64,000 nucleotides of DNA from Haloplanus salinarum (lineage in GTDB: Archaea > Halobacteriota > Halobacteria > Halobacteriales > Haloferacaceae), in NCBI RefSeq assembly GCF_024498175.1, contig NZ_CP101823.1, positions 372,001-436,000 on the forward strand, written 5' to 3'. A model generated the notes under the pieces. It ran no database searches. It was not told the DNA's origin and was given only the letters and a program-made list of their open reading frames with translations. Below are positions 14,642 through 29,043 of the stretch, piece by piece. Position numbers and translations under genes: made by a program. Position 1 is the stretch's first letter. Each line of letters opens with the position of its first letter.

Positions 14642-17600
14642 TCAGACGTCGCCGTCGCAGACGTTTTCCAACACGTCCCGGAGCGCGTCACGGAGGTAGA
14701 GCGTCGACTCGTAACGATCCTCCCGTTCGGTCGCCAGCGCGGTCAGGACGACGTCGTCGACGGCCTCGGGGACGTCCGCGAGGTCGCTTGGCGGTGCAGG
14801 CCTCTCGGTCCGGGGCCATCCGGCGTCACCGCGGAACGGCGGTCGTCCGGTGGACAGTTCGTAACAGATCGCGCCCAGTTGGTAGACATCGGTGACCGTA
14901 TCGACCGGGGAATCGTCGTCGAACTGCTCGGGCGCGGCGTACGTCGGCGTGTACTCCGCCCGCTCCCGCGCCCCGTCGAGCAGCCGCCGGGAGAGCCCCC
15001 AGTCGGCCACCTTCGGGACGTCCCACCCGTCCTCGACCGACCGGAAGAGCACGTTCGCCGGTTTCAGATCGAGATGGGCGACGCCGTGCCGGTGGGCGTG
15101 GTGGACACCCCGCGTCGTCGCGAGGGCGGTCCAGAGCGCCTGTGTCGTCGACAGTTCCCCCGCCCGGTCGCTCAGATCCCCGCCCTTCATGAACTCCATC
15201 GCGATCCACGGCACCGGCCGCTCGCCCCAGTCGACGACGCCGACGACGTGGTCGTGATCGTCGAGCCCCGCCCACGTCCGTGCCTCCTCGACGAACCGTT
15301 CGCCGATCTCAGCGTGGAGGGTCCCCGAGAACCGCGGTTCCTTGAGCGCGACCGTCAGGTTGCCCCCCTCGACCGTCGCCTCGTAGACGTCGGCGCGGCC
15401 ACCCCGGCCGATCCGGTCGCCCCGCACGAGCGCCCCGTAGTCGAGGCTCCGGTCGGGCGCCCGAGGGACCTCCTCGGGTGGGCCGCGCTCCGCCGTCCCC
15501 GACCCGTCGCTCACGACGACCGTCGCCGGCCGTTCGACCCGTCCGTCCCGCGCGTAGCCGACGCGACGGACCTCGAGGATCGCCCCCTCCGGACGCGTGG
15601 ACTCCACCGTCGTGCCCGCACTGTGCCGATCGGGGTCCAGCGACGTCCCCGGGTCGGGGTCGACGAGCGCGACGCCGATCCCTTCGAGCGCGCTGTCGAT
15701 CCGTCGACGCGTGGAGCGAACCCACCCGTGGAGCCGGTCGACGGTCCCCGGATCGCCGTCGACCGCCCGGTCGATGTCGTCGGCGACCGCGACCACGTCG
15801 TCGGCGATCGTCCCGGTCACCTCCCCGGCCGTCAGCCGGTCGAGCTTCCGACGCGTCGCGCGCAACCCCTCCTGGATCCGTCCGGGGCCGTCGGCGTCGG
15901 CGGCGAGCGCCCGCGTCAGGTCGTCGCGGACGTCGAGGAGGCGTTCGACCTCGTCGCCCGTCGGCGACCGGTCGACACGGCGGGGGGCCACCTCCCCGTC
16001 CCGTCCGTCACCGTCGACGCCCTCGGCGTCGGCCGTCCCCGCGCCGTCGGTGTTCGCGTCGCCGTCCCCCTCGTCCGCCGCCGCGAACGCCCGGAACTCG
16101 GCCGTCTCGGCGGCGCCGTCCGTCTCGGCCGTCGACGAGACGGTCAGGATACCGTCCGCGTCGACCGCGAACTCGATCCCGACCTCGGGGGTGCCCGCCG
16201 GCGCCCGCGGAACCTCCGGGACGGTGAACTCGCCGATCGGTTCCGGGTCGTCCTCGCCGCGCAGGACCCGCACCCGGACGGACGTCCGGTCGTCCTCGTC
16301 CGTGGTGACCGTCTTCGACTCCCGGCAGGGGAGCGGCGTCCCCGCCTCGACGAGCGTGTCGACCCCGCCAGCCGCCGTCTCGACGCCGAGGGCGGCCGGC
16401 AGGAGCGGTGGCCGGGTTATCCCGGGCACGTCGCCGGTGTGAACGCGGTTCGTCGGGAGCGGTTCGTGGGCGTACGCCGGCCTGTAGGCGGCGATCGGCT
16501 CCGGATCGTCCGGCGGGACGTCGGGAAGGTCCGAGTCGTCCAGCCGGACGTCGGGAGGGTGGTCCAGGTAGTCCGGCAACTCCCCGAACAGGACCCACCG
16601 ACTCCAGGCGATCGCCGAGTCGGTGAGTCGCGGTCCCTCCCCGATCGAGAGGCCGCCCAGCGTCTCCCCGTCCGCACTCTCGGCGCCGACGTTGACGACC
16701 TCGCGGCCGACGTCGACGCGAACGTCGATCCGGGGCTCTCCGGCCGGCGCGTCCGGGATACCCGTCGCCACGAAATCGCCGAGGTCGACGCCGTCGGCCA
16801 CGCCGGGGCCTCCCTCGCGTATCCGAATCCGGGCCTCGCGCTGTCCGTCGACCGTCGTCGTGAACGTCTTCGACCTGTCGGTGGGGATCGACGTGTCCCC
16901 CTCGACGATCGGCTCGAAGTCCTCGTCGTCGACCGCGACGCCGATCGGACGCGGACGCTGATCGATCAGGACGACGTCGTCGACCGGTCCGGCGAGGATC
17001 CCGCCCTGGACCGCGGCTCCGAACGCGCCGGCGACGGCCGGATCGACGCCGGTCGAGGGGACCAGATCGACGGCCGCTTCGATCGCCTCCCGAACCGCGG
17101 GCATCCGCGTCGCACCCCCGACGAGGACGACGTCGTCGACGTCGGTAGGCGCGACCCCGGCCGCGTCGAGGACGGCTTCGATCCGCTCGACGAGACGGTC
17201 GCGGAGTTCGGCGGTCATCCCGTCGAGTTGCTCCCGTGTCAGGGTCTCCTCCAGGTCGAGCGGGCCGTCGTCGGTGAAGGTGACGTACGGCAGGCTGATC
17301 TCGTATCGGTCGCGGGCGGTGAGGTCGGTCCGGGCGTCGGCCGCCGCCTCGATCAGCCGTCGCCGGGACCCTGCGTCGTCCCGGAGGTCGACGCCGTGGT
17401 CGGCGTCGAACCGCTCCGCGAGGTGGTCGACGACCGCCCGGTCCCAGTCGTCGCCGCCGAGGTCGCTCCCGTCGGTCGCCTCGGCGATGTACGCACCGCG
17501 GTCGACTTCGAGGACGCCCACGTCGAACGTTCCGCCGCCGAGGTCACAGACGAGTACGTTCGGTTCGGTCCCGTGGCTCGGCTTCGCGGCCATCGCGGCC

Positions 17601-18061
17601 GCGGACGTCGCGAGGAGGATCCGCTCGGTCCGGAGGCCGGCGAGCGAAACCGCGTCTCTCAGACGCCGTCGGTACGCCGACGTCGCACGGTTCGGGACCG
17701 TGAGGACCACGCCGCGCGGCGTCGACTCGTCGCCGTCCGTCGCCGCGGGGACCGCCGTCGCGACGACCGCCGCCGCGAGCGTCTCCGGCGGGTAGGAGAC
17801 GCCGTCGACGACGAGCGCGTCGCCCGTCCGGAGGCGATCGACGAGGTCGGTCGCCCGCCGCTCGGGGTCGATCGTCGCGGCGGTGGCTCGTTTCCCGGCC
17901 AGTAGCGTCCCGTCGTCGCCGACCGCGACGACGGTCGGGGTCGCCTCGCGACCCTCCGCGTTCGTGACCGGCCGGGGACGGTCGCCGTCGTAGACGGCAC
18001 AGCGGGTCGTCGTCGTGCCGAAATCGAGTCCGATGAAACTTCCCTGCAGGGACGGTGACAC
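14642..18061 (-). CDS. Hsp70-like chaperone fused to a Ser/Thr protein kinase
   Basis: A 1139-residue multidomain protein. Residues 1-360 form an Hsp70/DnaK ATPase domain: phosphate-1 GLDFGTTTTRCAV, phosphate-2 VCDLGGGTFDVGVL and adenosine motif VVLVGGATRMPAVREAI. Residues about 365-480 and 545-660 are two substrate-binding-like beta domains; both contain a SKT(F/V)TT segment followed by a PDAPAG or PRAPAG turn. A charged helical region follows, and residues 872-1139 are a protein kinase: GRGGRADVY glycine loop, Lys907 (VALKEP), HLDLKPAN with Asp998, DWGLSRR in place of DFG, and TPTYAAPEQF. No membrane segment, so cytosolic. GTG 18061 is placed just before the Hsp70 domain. Single gene; kinase closely resembles that at 26411. 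Confidence 0.93.
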   Translation of the reverse strand: MSPSLQGSFIGLDFGTTTTRCAVYDGDRPRPVTNAEGREATPTVVAVGDDGTLLAGKRATAATIDPERRATDLVDRLRTGDALVVDGVSYPPETLAAAVVATAVPAATDGDESTPRGVVLTVPNRATSAYRRRLRDAVSLAGLRTERILLATSAAAMAAKPSHGTEPNVLVCDLGGGTFDVGVLEVDRGAYIAEATDGSDLGGDDWDRAVVDHLAERFDADHGVDLRDDAGSRRRLIEAAADARTDLTARDRYEISLPYVTFTDDGPLDLEETLTREQLDGMTAELRDRLVERIEAVLDAAGVAPTDVDDVVLVGGATRMPAVREAIEAAVDLVPSTGVDPAVAGAFGAAVQGGILAGPVDDVVLIDQRPRPIGVAVDDEDFEPIVEGDTSIPTDRSKTFTTTVDGQREARIRIREGGPGVADGVDLGDFVATGIPDAPAGEPRIDVRVDVGREVVNVGAESADGETLGGLSIGEGPRLTDSAIAWSRWVLFGELPDYLDHPPDVRLDDSDLPDVPPDDPEPIAAYRPAYAHEPLPTNRVHTGDVPGITRPPLLPAALGVETAAGGVDTLVEAGTPLPCRESKTVTTDEDDRTSVRVRVLRGEDDPEPIGEFTVPEVPRAPAGTPEVGIEFAVDADGILTVSSTAETDGAAETAEFRAFAAADEGDGDANTDGAGTADAEGVDGDGRDGEVAPRRVDRSPTGDEVERLLDVRDDLTRALAADADGPGRIQEGLRATRRKLDRLTAGEVTGTIADDVVAVADDIDRAVDGDPGTVDRLHGWVRSTRRRIDSALEGIGVALVDPDPGTSLDPDRHSAGTTVESTRPEGAILEVRRVGYARDGRVERPATVVVSDGSGTAERGPPEEVPRAPDRSLDYGALVRGDRIGRGGRADVYEATVEGGNLTVALKEPRFSGTLHAEIGERFVEEARTWAGLDDHDHVVGVVDWGERPVPWIAMEFMKGGDLSDRAGELSTTQALWTALATTRGVHHAHRHGVAHLDLKPANVLFRSVEDGWDVPKVADWGLSRRLLDGARERAEYTPTYAAPEQFDDDSPVDTVTDVYQLGAICYELSTGRPPFRGDAGWPRTERPAPPSDLADVPEAVDDVVLTALATEREDRYESTLYLRDALRDVLENVCDGDV

Positions 18062-25547: not shown

Positions 25548-26225
25548 TCAGTTCGAGCACGGGTCGTCGGCGACGTCCGGCAGCGTCGTCACCTCGCGGT
25601 CGGGGTGTGCGCCGATGGCCTCCGGCGGGTCGCGCCGACGGTTCACCCACGTCGTCGCCATGCCCGCGTTGCCGGCGCCGGCGACGTCCCAGGCGTTCGA
25701 GGAGACGAGTCGACAGTCGTCGAGCGGTCGGTCGAGGGTCTCGGCGGCGTGTTCGTACACCGAAGGGTCGGGCTTGAAGGTCCGTACCCCGTGGGCGCTG
25801 ACGATTCCGTCGAGGTGAGACCGAAGCCCAGCGTTCTCCGCGAGCCGTTCCAGCATCGCGGGGTTGCCGTTCGAGAGAACCACCACCTCGTGGCCGGCCG
25901 TCGACAGGCGGTCGAGGGTCTCCGCCGCTCCCGGGAACGGCTCCAGATGGTCGTACGTCTCGCGGATGCGTTCGCGGGTCGACGCGTCGGGATCGAGGTC
26001 GAACTGGGCCAGCGCGTACTCGAGCGCGTGGCCGGTGATCTCCCAGAACGGCTCGTAGTCGTCCATCTGTGCGCTCTGGTAGGAGTACTGGAGCTGTTTG
26101 CGGCGCCACACCTCGTCGACCGCCGCCACCAGCCGGTCCGCGACGTCGAGTTCCTCGCCCAGGCGGGCGCGCACGCTACTCGTATCACACAGGGTTCCGT
26201 ACATGTCGAAGCAGATGCCGGCCAT
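25548..26225 (-). CDS. Haloacid dehalogenase, type II (HAD superfamily)
   Basis: A 225-residue HAD hydrolase with the residues that mark L-2-haloacid dehalogenases: DMYGTL with nucleophile Asp7, an SNG loop (LSNGNPAM), FKPDPSVYEHA with the Lys and Tyr, and SSNAWDVAGAGNAGM containing the Ser-Ser-Asn-x-x-Asp set. The reaction would be hydrolysis of 2-haloacids to 2-hydroxyacids, although some family members are general phosphatases. ATG 26225 was chosen because the protein then starts directly at the catalytic strand and has the usual 220-230 length; the open frame upstream does not resemble the family. Divergent from the receptor kinase gene. Confidence 0.85.
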   Translation of the reverse strand: MAGICFDMYGTLCDTSSVRARLGEELDVADRLVAAVDEVWRRKQLQYSYQSAQMDDYEPFWEITGHALEYALAQFDLDPDASTRERIRETYDHLEPFPGAAETLDRLSTAGHEVVVLSNGNPAMLERLAENAGLRSHLDGIVSAHGVRTFKPDPSVYEHAAETLDRPLDDCRLVSSNAWDVAGAGNAGMATTWVNRRRDPPEAIGAHPDREVTTLPDVADDPCSN

Positions 26226-26376
26226 GTCCGGTGGATAGGGGCGATTCGCTTGTATTCGTTCCCCCGCTCGATGGTGCACGAAGACGAACGGATCGGCGTC
26301 GATCAGTGCCGCGTCGTCGACGACGGTATTGCCTCTTCGTGGCCGATTCGAATCCATACCGTCCCCGAGCCCGACA

Positions 26377-26383
26377 TTTTATG
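26377..26383 (+). promoter_or_regulatory. TATA box of the receptor-kinase gene
   Basis: TTTTATG is centred about 28 bases before GTG 26408 and ATG 26411, the spacing of a leaderless haloarchaeal transcript, which suggests the gene is expressed. Confidence 0.55.
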
Positions 26384-26410
26384 ACGATTGTATGATTGTA
26401 TCGGACAGTG

Positions 26411-28884
26411 ATGCCAGGGCCAGCCGACGACGACCGGATCCCGGAGGCGGTCGCCCCGCACACGTTGTCGGACTTCGGGTATGGCGACCTGGAGAAAGGG
26501 AAGCGGATTGGCACGGGGGGCGACGCGGACGTGTACCGTGCGACCCTCGACCAGGACGGCTATACGTACCCGATCGCAGTCAAGGAACCGCGATTCGAAG
26601 GTACGATTCGGAAGCGCGTCTTCCAGAGGTTCGAAACGGAGGCAGAGACGTGGGAAAGCCTAAACCACCACGAAAACGTCGTCTCCGTCTACACGTGGGG
26701 TGCGGAACCACTCCCGTGGCTCGCCCTGGAGTTCATGGACGGTGGGACGCTCGAAGCACAGCTCGGATCGATCGACGTCGCCGAGGCACTGTGGCTCTCC
26801 GGCCGTATCGCCGAGGGGATTCGATACGGCCATCGTCACGGTGTCGCCCACCTCGACATCAAACCCACGAACGTGCTGTTGCGGGATACGCCGGAGGGCA
26901 AGTGGGACTATCCGAAGGTCAGCGATTGGGGCTGGCCAAGATGCTACTGGACCACTCCAATAGCATCGAGGGAATCTCACCGACGTATGCCGCGCCGGAA
27001 CAGTTCGACGCCGAGGAGTACGGAAGCCCCGACGATATCACCGACATCTACCAACTGGGGACGCTAGTGTACGCGTTGGTGGCGGGTGAGCCGCCGTTTT
27101 CCGGATCGTCGACGGCCGTCATGCAGGGTGTTCTACGGGAGGACCCGGACCCGCCGTCGACGGTCAATCCCGAGGTACCGGCGGCCGTCGACGAGGCCGT
27201 GCTGAAGGCGCTGGCAAAGGACAAAGCCGATCGGTACGACGGGGTCCTCACTTTCAGGAAGGAACTGGATCGGCTCTTTGCGGAACACGTCTCGGACGAC
27301 GTGGTCGGCGGGAACCCCCCGACAGCGTCCCCGGCACCCGAACCGACGGATCGGACGACCGAGAGGGATGCCGAAACGGTGGCAGACAGCACCGAAACGG
27401 TTGCCACCGGCTCCCGGACTGGGTCGCGGTCAGCAGTCGACCAGGACGAGGGTTCGCCGGCCTCCGCTACACGACACGGGACGGGGTCGGACGGCGCTCC
27501 GCTGGTGTCGCGCCGATCCGTACTCGGCCTCCTGAGTGTGGGCGTGCTGGGAGGGGGTGGCGTGATGGTCACCCGAATCACCGGCGACGACGAACCCTCT
27601 TCGTCGGGGTCGGCCCCACTCGGGGGTAGCGGTGACGGTGGCGGCGGATCGGAGTATTCCGAACTCGGCAACTACCCCATCGAAGGCGACACAGCGACGT
27701 TCGGGTTCACCGTGCCCCAGTCCGGGCCCTACGCCGCTGAGGGGGAGGACGAACTCCGGGGGTACGAGCTCGCGGTCGATCACCTCAACAACGGCGGCGG
27801 CTGGGTCGACTCCCGGTTCGACGACCTCTCCGGTGACGGCGTCCTCGACTATCGGATCGATTCGGTGAGCGGAGACACGGAGACGGACGCCGACACCGCG
27901 CGCCAGTGGGCGGCGCGGATGATCCGGCGTGACGACGCGATCATGGTGAGCGGTGGCTCGTCCTCGGCGGTGACCATCGCGGTCCAGGACCTGTGCCAGC
28001 AGGAACGGACCGTGTTCATGGGGTGTCTGACCCACTCGAACTACACGACTGGACGGGACTGCTTGCGTTACGGCTTCCGCGAGATGTTCAACGTGCACAT
28101 GACGGGACAGGCGCTGGCGCCGGTCCTCCGTGACGAGTACGGCGAGGGGCTGCAGTTCTACCAGCTCTACGCCGACTACAGCTGGGGACGGACCCAGCAG
28201 GAGTCGATGAACCAGTTCCTCTCCGAGACGGCCGGGTGGAAGCAGGTCGACTCGGTGGCGACGCCGCTCGGCACCAGCGACTACTCCTCGTACCTCTCGG
28301 AGGCATCGAACTCCGGGGCGGACGTCCTCGTGCTCAACCACTACGGACTGGACGGCGCGACGTCGGTCAGTCAGGCGGTCGACGCCGGTCTCGCCGAGGA
28401 CATGGAACTCGTCGTCCCGTTATACAACCGGCCGATGGCCGAGGCCGCGGGTGCCGCCATCGAGGGCGTCTTCGGCACCGTCGCGTGGGACGCCCAGATC
28501 GACAACACGCCGTCCCAGGAGTTCCTCCAAGCGTTCCAGGACGAGTACGACCGCGTCCCCTCCGGCGTGGCACACCTCGCCTACGCCCAGACGCTCCAGT
28601 ACGCGGCGGCCGTCGAGCGCGCCGGCACCTTCTACCCGCCCGAGGTCATCCGCCAACTCGAGGACTACGAGTACGACAACATCGGCATGGGCTCCGAGAC
28701 GATGCGCGCGTGCGACCACCAGGCCCAGCGTGCCGTTCCGGTCGTCCGCGGCCTCCCGGAGTCCGAACAGCGGACGGGGCAGTACTACGAGCTCATCGAC
28801 CTGACCAGCCGCGACGAACTCGGCTACGGCTGTGACGAAGGCCCGGCCGCGGAGTGCGAACTCGGCGAGTACGGCGACGAGTAG
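26411..28884 (+). pseudogene. Receptor-type protein kinase fused to a solute-binding protein, frameshifted
   Basis: The first frame (ATG 26411) encodes residues 1-174 of a protein kinase: GTGGDADVY glycine loop, Lys58 (VAVKEP), Asp149 in HLDIKPTN, ending at SDWG. At the run GGGG (26928-26931) the frame breaks; in the other frame the kinase continues without loss (LAKMLLDHS..., SPTYAAPEQF, DITDIYQLG). One extra G would restore WGLAK. Then come a Ser/Thr-rich linker, SRRSVLGLLSVGVLG (about residue 366: twin arginine plus hydrophobic helix) and a 390-residue type I periplasmic-binding domain like those for branched-chain amino acids, up to TGA at 28884. Predicted topology: kinase inside, binding domain outside. 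It could be a sequencing error, a recent lesion or programmed frameshifting. Confidence 0.85.
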
Positions 28885-29043
28885 TCGTCGCGCTGTCCCC
28901 CGTCGAACACGACCGACCGATACGCAACACAACGCCGGTCACTAGACGGGTCGGGCCCGACGCCGGGGAATCCTGGAGTTTCACATCGAATCTAGGACGC
29001 CGCGTGACGGTCGTGACCGGCGGGGAGTCGCCGCCAGATGCGT

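Follow-up and report, generated by a model that had tools for sequence, protein, structure and literature searches.

The gene at 26411–28884 of the window, the 64,000-nucleotide stretch of Haloplanus salinarum DNA analyzed here, probably encodes a domain-shuffled chimeric receptor kinase that captured the solute-binding protein (SBP) of a transporter, and that was intact until recently and is possibly now broken. From its ATG at 26411 to its stop codon at 28882–28884, this one gene specifies a kinase, a linker, a twin-arginine (RR) segment and a PF13458 SBP, but its kinase part is split over two frames by a shift of a single base. The locus is organized as follows:

25548–26357, minus strand: HAD-family hydrolase gene, in the opposite orientation to its counterpart in congeners (congener comparison)
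26231–27620, plus strand: inserted kinase-anchor cassette, with no counterpart at the locus in relatives (congener comparison)
26411–26929, plus strand: first part of the kinase, residues 1–173 through HLDIKPTN and DW, in frame 2, which is open only to 27067 (PF00069; the ATG agrees with where sister kinases start)
26924–26935, plus strand: frameshift site, reading GATTGGGGCTGG where intact relatives have one more G (GACTGGGGGCTGG)
26929–27300, plus strand: kinase C-lobe (GLAK...APEQF...), in frame 1 (PF00069, profile 143–251)
27301–27507, plus strand: Ser/Thr/Glu/Asp-rich low-complexity linker, variable among sister kinases (translation)
27508–27570, plus strand: twin-arginine anchor SRRSVLGLLSVGVLGGGGVMV, without a lipobox cysteine (hydropathy; aligns with TRRRVLGVLGVGVVGAGG and others in sister kinases)
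27621, plus strand: fusion junction in a Gly/Ser-rich spacer, the leftmost point of DNA homology to the relatives' stand-alone SBP gene (blastn)
27649–28884, plus strand: SBP domain (Peripla_BP_6, LIV/urea type), 411 residues and stop (PF13458; SBPs of ten congeners)
28901–29000, strand not applicable: scar where relatives hold about 4.3 kb (congener comparison)

An earlier note, made from the letters of the DNA, had described a kinase, a linker, an RR segment and a binding protein in one chain. Profiles and hydropathy bear out this order; the note does not mention that the kinase is split over two frames. In Pfam profile searches the first kinase half matches PF00069 with E 2.2e-18 (profile 2–144) and the second with E 8.6e-6 (profile 143–251). 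The Pkinase profile thus spans both lobes, as in a Hanks-type kinase, in two frame pieces, and the catalytic motifs AVK, HLDIKPTN, DWG and APE are all encoded, yet not in a single frame as sequenced. That the C-terminal part is a binding protein was confirmed by a full-length match to PF13458 Peripla_BP_6 (E 5.5e-65, profile 3–337 of 343); a phmmer match to 3i09 has E 5e-19. An AlphaFold model of the SBP, built with ten aligned homologues, had a mean pLDDT of 44.8 and was discarded. A hydrophobic segment is also present where the note had placed one, near residue 370. The sequence SRRSVLGLLSVGVLG lies at chain residue 367, after the low-complexity linker, in the sole region of the chain with a 17-residue mean hydropathy above 1.5. 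It consists of S-R-R-S-V-L and 17 residues of mean hydropathy 2.05, an RR motif with a weakly hydrophobic segment. No cysteine follows, so that the segment is not a Tat-lipoprotein signal, whereas orthologues of the SBP have LAGC. Chance does not explain the layout, with domain matches far beyond the profile threshold and an anchor that is retained among sister kinases. Upstream of the gene, TTTTATGA at 26377–26384, about 31 bases before the ATG, would fit the TATA box of a leaderless haloarchaeal transcript. A promoter scan of this archaeal DNA with a bacterial model gave no match.

The kinase belongs to a family with interchangeable exported domains. Its closest relative is a plasmid-borne kinase of Halapricum desulfuricans (pHSR-Bgl01, WP_229126546.1), with 76% DNA identity and protein identities of 78.6% in the first part and 72.9% over the aligned C part. 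The Halapricum protein has an intact frame and a C-terminal PQQ propeller, and no RR anchor was seen in its sequence, in contrast to the window protein. The same RR anchor stands before other extracytoplasmic domains in four sister kinases. Three of these, in this genome (G000, at 830.9 kb), in a congener (G007, at 641.9 kb) and in a genome of another family (G082), align lengthwise with the window protein over kinase, linker and RR anchor and share its order of kinase, anchor and exported domain, but their exported domain is a halocyanin-type blue-copper domain (PF00127) instead of an SBP. The fourth, also in G007, exports a LamG-type domain; this protein (L159, G007:C1:2626295) carries a lectin-like domain on the same kind of anchor. 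Since the same RR segment precedes different exported domains, the anchor came with the kinase and not with the SBP. Across the genus, three of 12 genomes carry these kinases in numbers (11–14 matches each) and the other nine have none at the threshold used. Contig C1 of this genome (G000:C1) shows an expanded kinome of about 14 Hanks kinases (e.g., L009, L010, L011, and L015), several of them with a Tat-signal PQQ propeller placed before the kinase. Within the window, a 1139-residue protein at 14642–18061 (minus strand) matches HSP70 with E 3.7e-110, a GrpE-type domain with E 5e-17 and a Hanks kinase with E 1.5e-31, so that a single chain unites a chaperone, the exchange factor of that chaperone and a kinase. 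Congener G007 has a comparable HSP70-like kinase frame (L093), and in G001 a kinase lies in a frame of about this length.

The presence of the anchor in four sister kinases supports the architecture proposed in the earlier note, in which a cytosolic kinase, a mid-chain Tat-type anchor and an exported binding protein would follow one another. The segment is short and weakly hydrophobic and its topology is predicted from homology, which weighs against the chimeric receptor reading. Low hydrophobicity is typical of Tat-dependent segments, and in bacteria and archaea Tat integrates such segments late in multi-spanning membrane proteins (PMC5449189). A long cytosolic domain before a single Tat anchor would be an extrapolation from those multi-spanning proteins.

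The SBP is widespread as a separate gene. Orthologues were found in 72 of 293 genomes of the order, this one included, mostly in frames of 450–550 residues. The gene stands alone in all ten congeners that have it, whose SBPs are 84–89% identical to the domain in the window, and in each of the 71 genomes besides this one that gave a match; wherever the SBP locus of relatives was read, it lacks the kinase. The chimera is therefore seen in one genome and is not a conserved receptor. The earlier note had named separate genes in homologues as evidence against a fused sensor, and half of this is what is observed, with the SBP standing alone in every relative found. The one-component sensor that it proposed would be a chimera of a single genome, with its kinase frameshifted as sequenced. 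Stand-alone SBPs of congeners (e.g., G010 and G004) share the orthologous mature domain with the window protein, but have their own gene and a Tat lipoprotein signal (RRDVLKAAG...LAGC), with transporter genes adjoining in G010, whereas the window SBP is fused and lacks a transporter. The signal of one relative (L058) is of the Tat type but lacks the lipobox cysteine, and no signal was seen in the upstream frame on the contig of another (L059). The search for fusions covered one genome per species for close relatives of this SBP, and PF13458 proteins more widely in 14 other kinase-rich haloarchaea. No fusion-length PF13458 protein was found in these 14, where all are of ordinary length (at most 561 residues); half-length matches (1–186) occur in several relatives. 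Elsewhere in this genome, at G000:C1:1692741–1693940, PF13458 is matched in two pieces in reversed order (190–311 before 1–191) with an internal stop, in an SBP that is permuted, rearranged or broken.

The locus itself has been rearranged. In congeners HAD is followed by the SBP, then by about 4.3 kb, and then by universal stress protein and cytochrome oxidase genes; in G010, where the 4.3 kb were read, they contain a thioredoxin-like gene besides livH, livM, livG and livF. The window has an inverted HAD gene, then 1.39 kb (26231–27620) with no local counterpart ahead of the SBP, and about 100 bp in place of the transporter stretch. Homology to the congener SBP gene starts at 27621–27631 (blastn, five congeners), the Tat signal of the orthologues having been replaced by the kinase cassette. 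Repeats were sought at the breakpoints and none was convincing. The SBP thus has no adjacent or cognate ABC transporter, and no close copy of the lost permease was found elsewhere in the genome. An SBP part still serving as an ordinary receptor for another Liv-type transporter, with the kinase part as a mere membrane anchor, would be in keeping with the other Liv-type permeases of the genome. The best of these is just 35% identical to the lost one, however, and the genome has other PF13458 SBPs, which makes such a role quite improbable.

The history of the SBP segment differs from that of its surroundings. The flanking genes group this genome with G010 (support 100) and the SBP groups it with G004 (support 97). 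The AU test rejected each data set on the grouping of the other (p 0.02 and 2e-29); its 5000 resamplings are, by the program's own notice, too few for a reliable AU value. The conflict between the trees suggests that the SBP segment was probably imported by recombination, either carrying the kinase already or joined to it upon arrival. The SBP has also changed faster. On its own branch dN/dS is 0.26, against 0.08 for the sister G004 at the same synonymous distance, and it holds 29 unique residues (27 with a wider outgroup) against 1–16 in congeners; no comparable surplus of unique residues is seen in the genes that flank it. All-pairs dN/dS values for the SSS transporter (about 2, with failed dS values) were left out. 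The faster change would fit the loss of docking constraint together with a new role, or a partial relaxation before decay.

The frameshift lies in the catalytic DWG motif, at a TGGGG(G)C run from which one G is missing; the frame is continuous only if it is restored. Residues 1–173 are in frame 2 and everything after DW is in frame 1. Both the paralogue in the same genome and the Halapricum plasmid kinase read GACTGGGGGCTGG where the window reads GATTGGGGCTGG. In a 970-bp alignment to the Halapricum kinase, the single frame-changing gap in the catalytic domain is at this site, and the codon-position periodicity of mismatches switches phase exactly there. This periodicity scan served to compare the frames, because shadow ORFs, abundant in so GC-rich a genome, swamped a tblastn comparison of the ORFs. 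Both halves of the kinase are constrained (dN/dS about 0.10–0.12 against Halapricum), and neither shows excess change in the window copy, with 5 against 6 changes at outgroup-fixed sites in one half and 2 against 5 in the other. The frameshift is therefore recent or a sequencing error: either the kinase is newly broken or the missing base was misread. If the four-G sequence is real, translation would end at 27065–27067 and the kinase would be dead. As a sub-case of the chimeric receptor reading, the strain may make an intact 824-residue receptor kinase, with the shift a sequencing error. A one-base difference in a G run is a common kind of indel error and the kinase is otherwise intact and constrained, but assembly completeness is 99.96%, and over the roughly 59 kb of the window aligned with each of two congeners, the two agree on no further single-base frameshift within a gene, which argues that errors are rare in this stretch. 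We place this sub-case somewhat short of an even chance. A programmed −1 ribosomal frameshift at TTGGGGC would join the frames and restore DWGLAK exactly, but the heptamer is not a canonical slippery one. It was rejected as scarcely credible, given that the paralogue and the Halapricum kinase carry the extra G and need no shift.

The main alternative is that the gene is a pseudogene, a recombination product that was non-functional and never selected, made as the operon was destroyed, with the frameshift and the fast SBP change marking decay. The frameshift within the catalytic DWG motif, the raised dN/dS of the SBP, the deletion of the transporter genes and the occurrence in a single genome all agree with it. 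Decay is harder to reconcile with an SBP that has no stop or frameshift at a branch dS of about 0.16 and a dN/dS still well below 1, with the absence of excess change in either kinase half, or with an anchor-SBP junction that is in frame and keeps a usable domain order. A pseudogene is thus rather unlikely, and the chimeric receptor kinase is preferred. Against the latter stand the broken kinase frame in the only copy known and the lack of an orthologous fusion among the genomes searched; the faster SBP evolution also fits decay after transporter loss.

For the chimeric receptor kinase, the following course of events may be envisaged. A kinase-linker-Tat-anchor cassette of the haloarchaeal family would have been fused by recombination, inside the glycine-rich spacer, with the mature domain of an SBP whose stand-alone counterparts serve LivHMGF and are mostly Tat lipoproteins. 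The folded SBP would be exported by Tat and the RR segment retained as an uncleaved anchor, which would give a single-pass topology with the kinase inside and the SBP outside. Closure of the SBP on its ligand could then alter the kinase, which would phosphorylate cytosolic targets. More tentatively, and with somewhat greater weight on the side of doubt, an archaeal one-component receptor kinase may be proposed whose SBP, freed from docking by the loss of the transporter, re-evolved as a sensor, and which moved between species as a unit through recombination.

Fusions of Ser/Thr kinases to solute-binding domains are already known in bacteria. The available part of one survey describes such proteins with a Glu/Gln-type domain in Streptomyces coelicolor (gi|21223285) and with an ANF/branched-chain-type domain in Nostoc sp. 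PCC 7120 (gi|17227840); as archaeal multidomain kinases, that part names fusions of a kinase with a glycoprotease (OSGP) and no others (Krupa and Srinivasan, 2005; PMC1262709). As described there, these two kinases resemble the window protein in that one chain holds both a Ser/Thr kinase and a solute-binding domain of the ABC type, and the Nostoc domain is of the same broad ligand-domain type as the window SBP. Both are bacterial, whereas the window protein is archaeal, has a Tat-type RR anchor and has an SBP donor locus that can be reconstructed. No other archaeal kinase-SBP protein was found in the genomes and open-access literature searched. What is new is thus the archaeal variant, in one genome and frameshifted as sequenced. 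It offers a traceable case of receptor assembly: the locus that donated the SBP, the family of the kinase and the transporter that was deleted can each be named, and sister kinases have exchanged exported domains on the same kind of Tat anchor. If the fusion reading is true, a part of an uptake system would have become a sensor. The exchange of sensor domains in archaeal Ser/Thr kinases, of which little is known, thereby becomes directly testable in culturable haloarchaea.
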